Made by a program: the position numbers and the translations under genes | IMG/VR virus record: IMGVR_UViG_3300035698_003621 | Location: 1-20,169 of that record | Length of the DNA stretch: 20,169 nucleotides | Strand: one strand, 5' to 3' | Source of the DNA: a virus | Shown here: one piece after another, positions 5,610 through 18,460 of the stretch | Numbering within the stretch: the stretch's first letter is position 1 | Layout of the letters: every line of letters starts with the position of its first letter | Notes under the pieces: generated by a model | Databases searched by the model: none | What the model saw: only the letters and a program-made list of their open reading frames with translations | What the model was told of the DNA's origin: nothing

Positions 5610-5782
5610 AAAACGGAATATCAGCACCCAGAAAAGGTAAAGCACCAGTAAACGGACACCCAGTACCAGTAGTTATCCCTAAAGAAGAGATCATAGACTA
5701 CTTACTAGACGTTTTTAAGAACTCCCATAACGAACAGAATAAGGTTCTAGCAGGTACAGGTCTCCTAATTAGTTTGAAGTAG
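5606..5782 (+). CDS. Small unknown protein, 58 aa
   Basis: ATGA overlap with the preceding gene, with AAAGAGG 5-6 nt upstream. It opens with a basic, Pro/Gly-rich stretch (ISAPRKGKAPVNGHPVPVV), then an acidic helix (PKEEIIDYLLDVFKNS) and a short hydrophobic tail. No family recognised. Its TAG (5780-5782) directly abuts the TGATATAAT promoter. Confidence 0.65.
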   Translation: MKNGISAPRKGKAPVNGHPVPVVIPKEEIIDYLLDVFKNSHNEQNKVLAGTGLLISLK

Positions 5783-5791
5783 TGATATAAT
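5783..5791 (+). promoter_or_regulatory. Extended -10 promoter TGATATAAT
   Basis: A perfect extended -10 starting immediately after the TAG of the previous gene. The predicted start point is about 5798, just before the structured RNA and beside an ATG at 5799 that opens a 16-codon ORF. Confidence 0.75.
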
Positions 5792-5797
5792 AAATGT

Positions 5798-5910
5798 AAT
5801 GAAAGACACAGTGACAAAAAGTTTTTTACAAAATGTTAGAATAAATTAAGAGCTTTTAATTTAGCCGATTTGCTTTCCACGTCACTGTGCAAGTAAGTCG
5901 GCTATTTTAT
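5798..5910 (+). ncRNA. Candidate structured RNA with pseudoknot topology
   Basis: Two perfect helices interleave. Stem 1 is CACAGTGAC (5807-5815) with GTCACTGTG (5881-5889). Stem 2 is TAGCCGA (5862-5868) with TCGGCTA (5898-5904). Their order 5'S1-5'S2-3'S1-3'S2 is the topology of an H-type pseudoknot with a long first loop. TTTTATTAT follows stem 2, so stem 2 could also act as a weak terminator. A 16-aa ORF (5799-5849, MKDTVTKSFLQNVRIN) covers the 5' arm of stem 1, so a ribosome on it would break stem 1. A GTG (5887-5889) lies in the 3' arm. It may be a free small RNA or a cis switch for the genes at 5914 and 6107. It matches no RNA family I know. Confidence 0.5.
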
Positions 5911-5913
5911 TAT

Positions 5914-6105
5914 ATGGAAGAAAAGATACTTGAGGCAGCAAAACTAGCAGCCTGGTTAATGAGAGAAAAAGGCAAGAAAAGAAACATAGCAGTACTGATA
6001 GGCTGCTACAAACATAAAGTGCCGCTTCTCTTCAGATCTCTAGTGAGCAAAAAAGCCACAGAGCATAATAAAAGAATGACCACACCAGTATCTTTATTTG
6101 ACTAA
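5914..6105 (+). CDS. Small basic protein, 63 aa, structured leader
   Basis: Reads MEEKILEAAKLAAWLMREKG, then basic (KKRNIAVLIGCYKHK) with a polar tail. No SD precedes the ATG at 5914. In the same frame a GTG at 5887 would add nine residues, but it sits inside the 3' arm of the predicted stem 1, so its use would depend on RNA folding. The stop at 6103-6105 is one base from the replisome-organizer ATG, so coupled translation is likely. Function unknown. Confidence 0.55.
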   Translation: MEEKILEAAKLAAWLMREKGKKRNIAVLIGCYKHKVPLLFRSLVSKKATEHNKRMTTPVSLFD

Positions 6106-6106
6106 T

Positions 6107-6769
6107 ATGCAAGGATGGATAAAACTACACCGCCAACTTTTAGACTGGGAGTGGTATGACGACCACAATACCACCAGATTATTCATCCATTTACTTTTAA
6201 AAGCCTCTCATGTGTCTAAAAAATGGCGTGGCCAAACCATTAAGCCTGGACAACTAAGAACAACTATTGGTGAATTAGCAATAGAGACTGGTCTATCAAT
6301 TAAAAATACTAGGACATCATTAAATCACTTAAAATCGACAAACGAAGTGGCAAGCCAAACGACAAATAAAGGGACTGTTATATCAATCAATAACTGGGGT
6401 GAGTACCAGCAAGATGGCAAGTGGCCAGGCAAACAGGTGGCAAACAAAGGGCAAACGGGTGGCAAGCTGACCTCTGGGCTTAAGAATGTAAAGAATGTAA
6501 AGAATGTAAAGAAGAGAGAGATAGCCACTCCCTTAAAAGATAGATTAAATGAATCTGATTTTGAGGTAATAGCCGAGAGGTATAAAGTACCCACCAGCTT
6601 TGTTATCAGCAAATGGGATGATTTAATAAACTACTGTATCTCTAAAGGAAAAACATATAAAAATTATAAAGCAGCTCTTTCTTCATGGGTTAAGAAAGAT
6701 GCTATAAAAAGGATTGACGATGTCAAACAAAATAACAGCAAAACAGCAATCGACCTTAGTGGAGTTTGA
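6107..6769 (+). CDS. Phage replisome organizer / DnaD-like replication protein
   Basis: The opening (MQGWIKLHRQLLDWEWYDD, then NTTRLFIHLLLKASH) is the hallmark of the phage replisome-organizer N-terminal domain, which binds origin DNA and recruits the host helicase loading system. A winged-helix region spans about residues 45-100 (GELAIETGLSIKNTRTSLNHLKST, then INNWGEYQ). A basic linker (105-137) contains KNV repeats. The C-terminal segment ends YKNYKAALSSWVKKD (184-198), as in DnaD/DnaT-like C-terminal helices. ATG 6107 is preferred to an upstream TTG at 6098 because family members start at this Met. There is no SD; coupling to the preceding stop is likely. 220 aa. Confidence 0.8.
   Translation: MQGWIKLHRQLLDWEWYDDHNTTRLFIHLLLKASHVSKKWRGQTIKPGQLRTTIGELAIETGLSIKNTRTSLNHLKSTNEVASQTTNKGTVISINNWGEYQQDGKWPGKQVANKGQTGGKLTSGLKNVKNVKNVKKREIATPLKDRLNESDFEVIAERYKVPTSFVISKWDDLINYCISKGKTYKNYKAALSSWVKKDAIKRIDDVKQNNSKTAIDLSGV
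6482..6512 (+). repeat. 9-bp tandem repeat (AAGAATGTA) in the replisome-organizer linker
   Basis: Three head-to-tail copies of AAGAATGTA plus a partial copy, encoding repeated K-N-V (KNVKNVKNVKK, about residues 126-136). Unit changes keep the reading frame, so slippage would only lengthen or shorten the flexible basic linker. Confidence 0.85.
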
Positions 6770-9419: not shown

Positions 9420-9428
9420 TGCTATAAT
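9420..9428 (+). promoter_or_regulatory. Extended -10 promoter TGCTATAAT for the portal operon
   Basis: TGCTATAAT, 5 nt after the previous stop codon. With the usual 6-7 nt spacing the transcript begins at or next to the AAGGACAT of the following hairpin element. Confidence 0.8.
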
Positions 9429-9433
9429 TTATT

Positions 9434-9464
9434 AAGGACATCTCCAAACAGAGGTGTTTTTTTT
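9434..9464 (+). promoter_or_regulatory. 5'-end module, copy 1: AAGGACAT, hairpin, T8, then portal ATG
   Basis: AAGGACAT (9434-9441) lies at the predicted 5' end of the RNA. CATCTC (9439-9444) pairs with GAGGTG (9451-9456), 6 bp with one wobble. Eight T (9457-9464) then run straight into ATG 9465. The stem could extend by A-U and G-U pairs between AAGGA and the U tract. Read as a terminator it would release a ~30-nt RNA. Read as a translation element it puts AAGGA about 8 nt from the ATG once the hairpin folds. Copies lie at 12345 and 18260. Confidence 0.7.
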
Positions 9465-12327: not shown

Positions 12328-12336
12328 TGGTACAAT
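12328..12336 (+). promoter_or_regulatory. Extended -10 promoter TGGTACAAT for the major capsid operon
   Basis: TGGTACAAT lies 8 nt after the scaffold stop. The predicted start is around 12343, just before AAGGACAT at 12345. Confidence 0.8.
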
Positions 12337-12344
12337 AATCTCAC

Positions 12345-12379
12345 AAGGACATATCCGCTCTAAAGAGGCGGATTTTTTT
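12345..12379 (+). promoter_or_regulatory. 5'-end module, copy 2: AAGGACAT, hairpin, T7, before major capsid
   Basis: AAGGACAT (12345-12352), then ATCCGC (12353-12358) pairing with GCGGAT (12368-12373). Two more pairs sit past a bulged G, with a TAAA loop; a T tract follows (12373-12379). Where the other copies have ATG, this one has GTG (12380), opening a four-codon ORF (GTG CTT ATT AAT TAA). The capsid gene then has its own SD and ATG 12407. Confidence 0.7.
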
Positions 12380-12406
12380 GTGCTTATTAATTAATAAAGG
12401 AAAACT

Positions 12407-13468
12407 ATGTCAGGACTTTCATACGGCAATAGAGTCGGTCACTTTTCGACCTCCAGGCCACAAGCGATAGTAACTAATGCGTTTTTAAACACCCCTACTC
12501 TAGCAGCTAGAGTTATTGGTAACGCCAAATCATTTAACAGAAAATCAATGCTTCACGACATTGAAGTAACTGCAAGAACTCAAGGACAATGGATTGCAGG
12601 TGGTGAGAGATTAAACAGTGCAGCTGAGGATGTAACCATCCAAATCGAATTTAGCAGAAGTATGTACACTTCACCAATTGTAGATCTATTGACTGAGGCA
12701 ATGCCAAGACAATACGACAACGATGTTGATTTCGATACATTTGACTACCAGAGTGCATATAACCAAGTATTGCAAGATATGTCCACAGCCGCTTACGGCT
12801 TTGGTGCAGGTAATATCATGCTCGGGTTAGGTGCAATCGTAGACGATGGTACAAACGTAGACAGCTACGGTGGACAATCACGTACAACTTACGATCAACT
12901 AGCAGCTACATACACTGACTGGGTAGCAGCTATGTCTCTATCGAAACTAGCTACTATGCACGACGCGGTATCTGATTCTGGAATAAACGAAATGCCTACA
13001 AGCATCTTCTCTGACTTCTCTAAATTCTCACTATATGAGAGTTTACTAACTCCAACTGTTTCTCACGAATACAGTGTAGAGCCAGTAAGAGGACGCAATG
13101 CAAAGACTTCCAGCAAAGAATTATCAATGGGTCAAGGTTTTACATCCCTAAGATACAGAGGTATCCCATGGATGAGAGACAAAGCTTGTACTGCAAACAC
13201 AGTATTTATGCTTAACGAGAACTACCTAGACTTCTACGGTGACACCAAAATGCCTAAACGCCATGCAGGTGCTTACGAGAAGATCAGTTTAGGAAAGAAA
13301 ACCATTGACGGCTTCGACCAGCCAAGTGAATTCAACGGATTCTTCTTCAGAAAAGAAATGCAATCTTACGATCAATTAGCTCTAACAGGCAGATTCGTAG
13401 TAAGTGGTCAGTTCTATTCAAAGAACCCACGCAGACATGGTCAAGCTTACAACGTAACGTCAGTATAA
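12407..13468 (+). CDS. Major capsid protein, HK97-fold type
   Basis: The main head shell protein. At 353 aa, placed after the scaffold gene and second after the portal, it fits the HK97-fold major capsid position. The sequence opens MSGLSYGNRVGHFSTSRP, followed by a domain with repeated aromatic/acidic turns (YDNDVDFDTFDYQSAYNQ). The C-terminal half has the RYRGIPWMRDKAC, VFMLNENYLDFYG and FFFRKEMQSYDQLALTGRF blocks typical of phage capsids of uncultured tailed phages. AAAGG lies 6 nt before the ATG, so this gene has a normal ribosome site, unlike its leaderless neighbours. It is followed by two hairpins. Confidence 0.88.
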   Translation: MSGLSYGNRVGHFSTSRPQAIVTNAFLNTPTLAARVIGNAKSFNRKSMLHDIEVTARTQGQWIAGGERLNSAAEDVTIQIEFSRSMYTSPIVDLLTEAMPRQYDNDVDFDTFDYQSAYNQVLQDMSTAAYGFGAGNIMLGLGAIVDDGTNVDSYGGQSRTTYDQLAATYTDWVAAMSLSKLATMHDAVSDSGINEMPTSIFSDFSKFSLYESLLTPTVSHEYSVEPVRGRNAKTSSKELSMGQGFTSLRYRGIPWMRDKACTANTVFMLNENYLDFYGDTKMPKRHAGAYEKISLGKKTIDGFDQPSEFNGFFFRKEMQSYDQLALTGRFVVSGQFYSKNPRRHGQAYNVTSV

Positions 13469-18244: not shown

Positions 18245-18253
18245 TGCTATAAT
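18245..18253 (+). promoter_or_regulatory. Extended -10 promoter TGCTATAAT for the tail-fibre operon
   Basis: TGCTATAAT, 2 nt after a TAG stop. The hexamer ends 6 nt before AAGGACAT, so the transcript should begin at that motif. Confidence 0.8.
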
Positions 18254-18259
18254 AAAATC

Positions 18260-18295
18260 AAGGACATCTCCACTCGAATTGAGTGGAGTTTTTTT
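18260..18295 (+). promoter_or_regulatory. 5'-end module, copy 3: AAGGACAT, hairpin, T7, then ATG
   Basis: AAGGACAT (18260-18267); CTCCACTC (18268-18275) pairs perfectly with GAGTGGAG (18281-18288) around GAATT; seven T (18289-18295) run into ATG 18296. This is the strongest stem of the three copies. The stem sequences differ between copies while AAGGACAT and the T tract are conserved, so the structure is kept and not the stem bases. With the hairpin folded, AAGGA lies about 10 nt from the ATG. Confidence 0.75.
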
Positions 18296-18460
18296 ATGGG
18301 AACTAATTGGACTGAAACTACTACTAATCCTACGAATTACACTGATACGGAAACCAATGCTAGTAATTGGGAAGATGAGGACGCTTACACAGGAGATCAA
18401 TATATATTTGAAAACTCAGACACTTATACATTTGAAGATGATACTAAATTTATATTCTAA
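18296..18460 (+). CDS. Tiny acidic Thr/Asn-rich protein, 54 aa
   Basis: The ATG directly follows the T tract of the hairpin module and the frame is open to TAA 18458-18460, 2 nt before the next gene. The composition is unusual: Thr, Asn, Asp, Glu and aromatics, with few basic residues (MGTNWTETTTNPTNYTD, SNWEDEDAYTGDQYIF). The repeated N-W/D-E and Y-T-F-E-D pattern resembles short virion or fibre-tip segments. Another frame in this stretch is also open but starts inside the hairpin. It may be a virion peptide; unproven. Confidence 0.65.
   Translation: MGTNWTETTTNPTNYTDTETNASNWEDEDAYTGDQYIFENSDTYTFEDDTKFIF

Follow-up and report, generated by a model that had tools for sequence, protein, structure and literature searches.

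To our knowledge, RNA-based timing of the synthesis of a phage replication initiator is known for very few systems. In plasmid copy control of the pT181/ColE1 type, kissing loops form between the sense and antisense strands, and antirepressor genes of the ant type are the gene class under C4 RNA control in phage P1. The repZ/repY leader, in the outline given by PMC10724649, controls the replication initiator of IncI-alpha, IncB and IncL/M plasmids (Asano and Mizobuchi 1998, cited therein). In phage P4, according to the section of PMC4825925 concerned with it, the CI RNA ends transcription of the replication operon, and the processed RNA pairs with separate sites located up- and downstream. For IsrK of Gifsy-1, transcription from one promoter either terminates, yielding a small RNA, or reads through into an antirepressor-type gene; the target of the small RNA is its own mRNA, and action in trans was shown (PMC4825925).

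Here we describe a locus within a 20,169-nt stretch of viral DNA (IMG/VR record IMGVR_UViG_3300035698_003621), referred to as the window, in which an earlier sequence-only reading had proposed a pseudoknot RNA with a tiny ORF upstream of a replication gene. The features of the locus are the following.

5783–5791, + strand: extended -10 promoter element TGATATAAT, recognised by sequence, with the start site expected at about 5798
5799–5849, + strand: 16-codon leader ORF MKDTVTKSFLQNVRIN, with its ATG 7 nt after TATAAT
5807–5815, + strand: 5′ arm of pseudoknot helix 1, CACAGTGAC, exact complement of 5881–5889
5862–5875, + strand: 5′ side of the 14-bp terminator-like hairpin (helix 2), from the fold
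5876–5890, + strand: hairpin loop of 15 nt, from the fold, containing the 3′ arm of helix 1
5881–5889, + strand: 3′ arm of the pseudoknot helix, GTCACTGTG, within the hairpin loop, identified by its complementarity to 5807–5815
5891–5904, + strand: 3′ side of the 14-bp hairpin, from the fold
5905–5913, + strand: T-rich run TTTTATTAT, a terminator-like tail 3′ of the hairpin, recognised by sequence
5914–6105, + strand: 63-aa ORF of unknown function, the first gene past the element
6107–6769, + strand: DnaD-like helicase loader (replisome organizer; phrog_2514, E 2e-24)

The extended -10 element, the 16-codon ORF running from ATG 5799 over the 5′ arm, and the replisome-organizer gene one gene downstream were all found as the sequence-only reading had described them, and helix 1 was borne out as 9 exact base pairs. 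Helix 2 had been put at 7 bp; this pairing is present (TAGCCGA at 5862–5868, complementary to TCGGCTA at 5898–5904), but the length was wrong, as the fold extends it to 14 bp, two of which are G-U. The segment 5855–5912 folds at -23.6 kcal/mol vs -7.1 ± 2.2 in shuffles (z -7.7), and the helix 1 duplex accounts for -13.3 kcal/mol. Since the 3′ arm of helix 1 lies inside the loop of helix 2, the two arms are predicted to form a pseudoknot or kissing complex. In the window folds, the arm-loop pairing was compatible with the hairpin and no competing antiterminator fold was evident. A promoter, a G+C-bearing hairpin and a T-run precede the first gene in the order of an intrinsic-terminator attenuator, with the T-run being interrupted and weaker than those of most relatives described below.

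The motif TGNTATAAT occurs at 8 sites in the window, all on the + strand, where 1.3 were expected; it is therefore taken as a real promoter motif. At 5 of the 8 sites (5107, 9121, 11400, 15998 and 16825, + strand), the ATG of a larger ORF lies 5–7 nt beyond TATAAT, which suggests that leaderless mRNAs are a common habit of this phage. ATG 5799 sits at the expected start of such an mRNA, and the leader ORF is probably translated from it without an untranslated leader. Codons 3–6 of this ORF make up the 5′ arm of helix 1. The reading had also pointed to a GTG at 5887, which is indeed in frame with the ORF ending at 6105. As a start codon it was rejected, being part of the pairing arm and not kept in relatives, and ATG 5914, immediately 3′ of the T-run, is the likelier start of the 63-aa ORF. 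No relatives of this 63-aa ORF were found; the helicase loader had 124 relatives in viral contigs. As a side observation on the latter, the window gene (6495–6515) and its counterpart in contig L079 (4795–4870) share a linker made from a short tandem repeat (KNVKNVKN), the length of which may vary.

No nucleotide relatives of this stretch of the window were detected among phage records, and the search was therefore run through helicase-loader homologs. Contigs L002/L082 are near-identical to the window DNA but begin inside the next gene. The regions upstream of the helicase-loader relatives were scanned for a T-tailed hairpin with a loop complementary to a segment shortly before the hairpin; the scans that found relatives accepted a hairpin only if at least 4 or 5 of the 8 bases that follow it were T. 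Of 216 distinct loci upstream of DnaD-like genes, 77 showed the same design, namely a 5′ arm and then a T-tailed hairpin whose loop carries the complementary arm, and 139 did not; the 77 loci have 46 different arms among them. In control stretches it appeared in 1 of 227 downstream, 2 of 82 far upstream and 11 of 228 on the other strand, the last count being raised by hairpin symmetry. The link between the element and the replication gene, which the earlier reading had assumed, is supported by these upstream and control counts. Of the high-scoring matches, 48 of 52 fell within 700 nt upstream of the helicase-loader gene, a region making up 2.2% of the bases searched. With duplicates removed, 29 of the 37 T-tailed hairpins that precede the gene had the arm, vs 24 of 658 elsewhere; as the loci are related to each other, the p value of this comparison overstates their independence. 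When one small gene intervenes, the hairpin commonly starts about 236–246 nt before the helicase-loader gene; in the window the distance is 245 nt, and the arm, the T-tailed hairpin with the complementary loop and the DnaD-like gene are found there in the same order.

On the other hand, the design was not found upstream in the Vibrio, Listeria, Bacillus, Pseudomonas and other phages examined, and a covariance-model scan of 395 Bacteroidota genomes, with no more than ten candidates scored per genome, gave no match, which is a weak negative. The terminase relatives of the window (at most 57% identity) had no recognisable DnaD-like gene in their records. In four loci (L011, L027, L028 and L046), ORFs resembling endonucleases (HNH/NUMOD4 or GIY-YIG by eye) lie between the element and the helicase-loader gene.

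Could the window structure be just a plain 5′ leader hairpin that stabilises the mRNA or ends transcription, with an arm match by chance? Three other window promoters are followed by simple hairpin and T-run leaders (those of the portal, capsid and 18296 genes), as this explanation would lead one to expect. However, a 9-nt match between leader and loop was reached by only 5 of 5000 dinucleotide-shuffled leaders and had a probability of 0.0025 in a wider test (p about 0.001–0.0025), and the complementarity is repeated with different letters among the arm sequences of the relatives. We therefore consider a plain hairpin improbable; a chance arm match in particular is rejected on the shuffles together with the upstream counts.

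For covariation, we aligned 23 members with Bacteroidetes-type promoters, in which 93.7% of the structure cells were paired. Changes on both sides were seen in 24 of 27 pairs vs 18.6 ± 1.5 in shuffles, and in 6 of 8 pairs of the pseudoknot helix alone. The covariation score was 0.757 vs 0.243 ± 0.019 in shuffles and at most 0.113 with the partners slid; as the structure was drawn from the same 23 sequences, the slid control favours it. The size of the gap and an independent folding prediction, which gave the same stems, are unaffected by this origin of the structure. The earlier reading had named complementarity lost without compensation as evidence against itself; the relatives gave the opposite result, namely compensatory changes, and the two interleaved helices are supported by the window sequence, its fold and the relatives. 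Among the cells that were not Watson-Crick, G-U outnumbered A-C by 55 to 6, which points to an RNA of the transcribed strand rather than to DNA or to the opposite strand, in agreement with the strand originally proposed. A covariance model of these phages with Bacteroidetes-type promoters (R1) did not have the window copy among its matches up to E 10. The window copy, for which there is no alignable relative, accordingly joins the class by its architecture, statistics and position, and not by alignment.

It is common for phage replisome organizers to bind close to the gene that encodes them. A DNA-level role of the inverted arms could be supposed, in which the replisome organizer binds them as operator sites or as an origin structure; the arms are in fact inverted repeats, and their core (CAC-N-GTG) is partly palindromic. 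Against this, the G-U to A-C counts are expected only for RNA of the given strand, both hairpin stems covary along with the arms, a terminator-like tail is present, and copies also stand before ant and HNH genes. A DNA operator or origin is thus disfavoured by the mismatch counts and the stem covariation, and we regard it as highly improbable.

The relatives fall into two groups. In group 1, with Bacteroidetes-type promoters (TAnnTTTG), there are two hairpins, a small one on the 5′ side and a larger, T-tailed one, whose loops carry the two complementary arms; the element either immediately precedes the helicase-loader gene or is separated from it by one small gene. Group 2, which includes the window copy, is without this promoter type, and several of its members have a sigma70-like -10. 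An ATG-started ORF covers the 5′ arm in 13 of 19 members of group 2 (window included), where 3.8 were expected, and its ATG lies 0–13 nt before the arm; the scan that collected these members ignored ATGs, while the grouping itself was made by eye. In group 1, such an ORF was present in 6 of 31 members, with 4.9 expected by chance, and a hairpin takes the place of the ORF. The small ORF over the arm, as originally proposed, therefore holds for the group without the Bacteroidetes-type promoter but is not class-wide.

In six relatives the arm-covering ORF ends between -5 and +18 nt of the helicase-loader start, which has the appearance of a translational-coupling layout: it ends 18 nt into the helicase-loader gene in L079, L131 and L203, three nt into it in L239, and five nt before it in L134 and L212. 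In the window, 12 nt separate the end of the leader ORF from the hairpin, and 64 nt separate it from the next start at 5914. As it is short and ends before the hairpin, coupling of the L079 type is inapplicable there.

How does this locus compare with the described systems? Like the repZ/repY leader, it has a leader ORF, a pseudoknot and a replication initiator in the same order, and some relatives share the translational-coupling layout. In the window itself, a leader ORF overlapping the structure was found, but neither the coupling layout nor an opposite-strand antisense promoter; no promoter-like site lies on the minus strand opposite the element, the nearest in the window being at 5718–5690. 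Furthermore, in the phage element a terminator-like hairpin carries the distal arm in its loop, the proximal arm coincides with the beginning of the leader ORF, and many members are without a leader ORF. The likeness to repZ suggested by the sequence-only reading therefore holds for the order of ORF, pseudoknot and initiator, but a close likeness does not, since the wiring differs and no antisense-strand promoter was found over the element.

Like the P4 CI and P1 C4 RNAs, the element is a leader of replication genes (as in P4) or of ant (as in P1, for one copy in Tenacibaculum phage Gundel_1), with complementary segments in one transcript, and premature termination of the replication operon, as in P4, is proposed for it. 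Unlike in P4, both arms are carried by one RNA of about 110 nt. None of the Rfam 15 families matched the window element at gathering score, and the C4 antisense RNA model RF01695 gave no match at gathering score, nor up to E 5. The best sub-threshold score was that of P14, at 24.6 bits against a threshold of 45, and was rejected as a generic hairpin with an A/T-rich flank. In giving both a short terminated RNA and a longer readthrough mRNA from one promoter, as is proposed for it, the phage element would resemble IsrK, although the structure is different and trans action is a proposal here. As in pT181/ColE1-type control, loops pair and letters diversify while the design stays, but both phage arms are on the same strand. 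That the element differs from repZ and from C4/P4 on these points does not bear on whether it works like these systems. A search of the literature, limited to open-access papers, found no description of the element.

The class includes isolated phages. In Cellulophaga phage phi18:3, the element lies one gene before its DnaD-like gene, and in Tenacibaculum phage Gundel_1 it is directly before the primosomal protein, with a second copy before an AntA/KilAC antirepressor (L165 2510–2606; Gundel_1 33897–34003). The two Gundel_1 copies have different arms (GCTCTCAC and GTAGGATTC), as do the two copies in L047 (GAGTCTCA and GTTGCGG), one of which precedes a NUMOD4-HNH gene. Different arms within one genome argue against one shared trans regulator of both operons. 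Between L052 and L054, identity is 90% upstream, 98% downstream and 64% in the element, suggesting that the arm letters change faster than their surroundings, perhaps through selection on specificity or through allele exchange. In L095 (1390–1475), a hairpin with a 14-nt arm match (TCAATCCCCGCTTA) follows a TTGACA/TATAAT promoter and precedes an ORF resembling an HNH endonuclease (no Pfam match).

These copies also bear on whether the element is a stand-alone small RNA with other targets, consisting of a promoter, a compact pseudoknot with protected ends and a terminator, for which the position is merely convenient. The promoter, strong fold and T-run do make a complete small-RNA unit, and some loci have a further gene, such as one for a homing endonuclease, between the element and the helicase loader. 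Yet the location before the helicase loader is kept across many lineages despite sequence change, two copies with different arms per phage would be unexpected for one shared regulator, and the window has no other exact arm copies, with one-mismatch copies at chance level. We find this explanation rather unlikely. The free small RNA that the earlier reading had set apart as an alternative is not exclusive of a leader, as the terminated small RNA and the leader may be one transcript.

It is moderately probable, in our judgement, that 5798–5913 is a leader RNA, belonging to the class by design and position, which acts as an attenuator of the replication operon and yields a small RNA on termination. 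The RNA structure and its association with replication genes are well supported by the comparisons above, attenuation of the replication operon is likely, and trans feedback by the terminated RNA is offered as a hypothesis. Transcription would start at the extended -10 promoter, and the RNA would fold into the terminator-like hairpin, the loop of which pairs with the 9-nt arm near the 5′ end and closes the pseudoknot. With the arm free, ribosomes would start on the overlying leader ORF, and transcription or translation would enter the operon; with the arm paired to the loop, the leader ORF would be shut and most transcripts would stop at the hairpin, at a length of about 110 nt. These short RNAs, with both arms aboard, could on accumulating pair with the arms of other copies, and perhaps such pairing damps further expression of the helicase loader. 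Taken as a whole, the element is very probably an undescribed RNA switch that times phage DNA replication.

A more tentative possibility, which we hold to be doubtful, is that the arms are specificity tags, through which the terminated leader RNA shuts the replication operons of same-arm phages in trans. If so, they would amount to a system of RNA-based exclusion or copy control acting among co-infecting phages, in which phages that are nearly identical elsewhere would swap arm alleles. With its compensated arms, a leader RNA this widespread in front of the helicase loader provides a control point that can be tested in many phages, among them isolates whose hosts are named (Cellulophaga phi18:3 and Tenacibaculum Gundel_1).

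Two further observations concern other parts of the window. A NinG-like recombination protein is encoded at 1370–1801 (Pfam PF05766, E 1.8e-14). At 9420–9455, 12328–12380 and 18245–18296 (+ strand), a promoter leads into AGGACATnTCC, a short hairpin and 7–8 consecutive T, just before the portal ORF, an ORF at 12407 (capsid-like position) and ORF 18296, respectively. Similar leaders (AGGATTAAATATATCC, hairpin, T-run) occur in contig L086, and they are possibly a second leader class, belonging to late genes.
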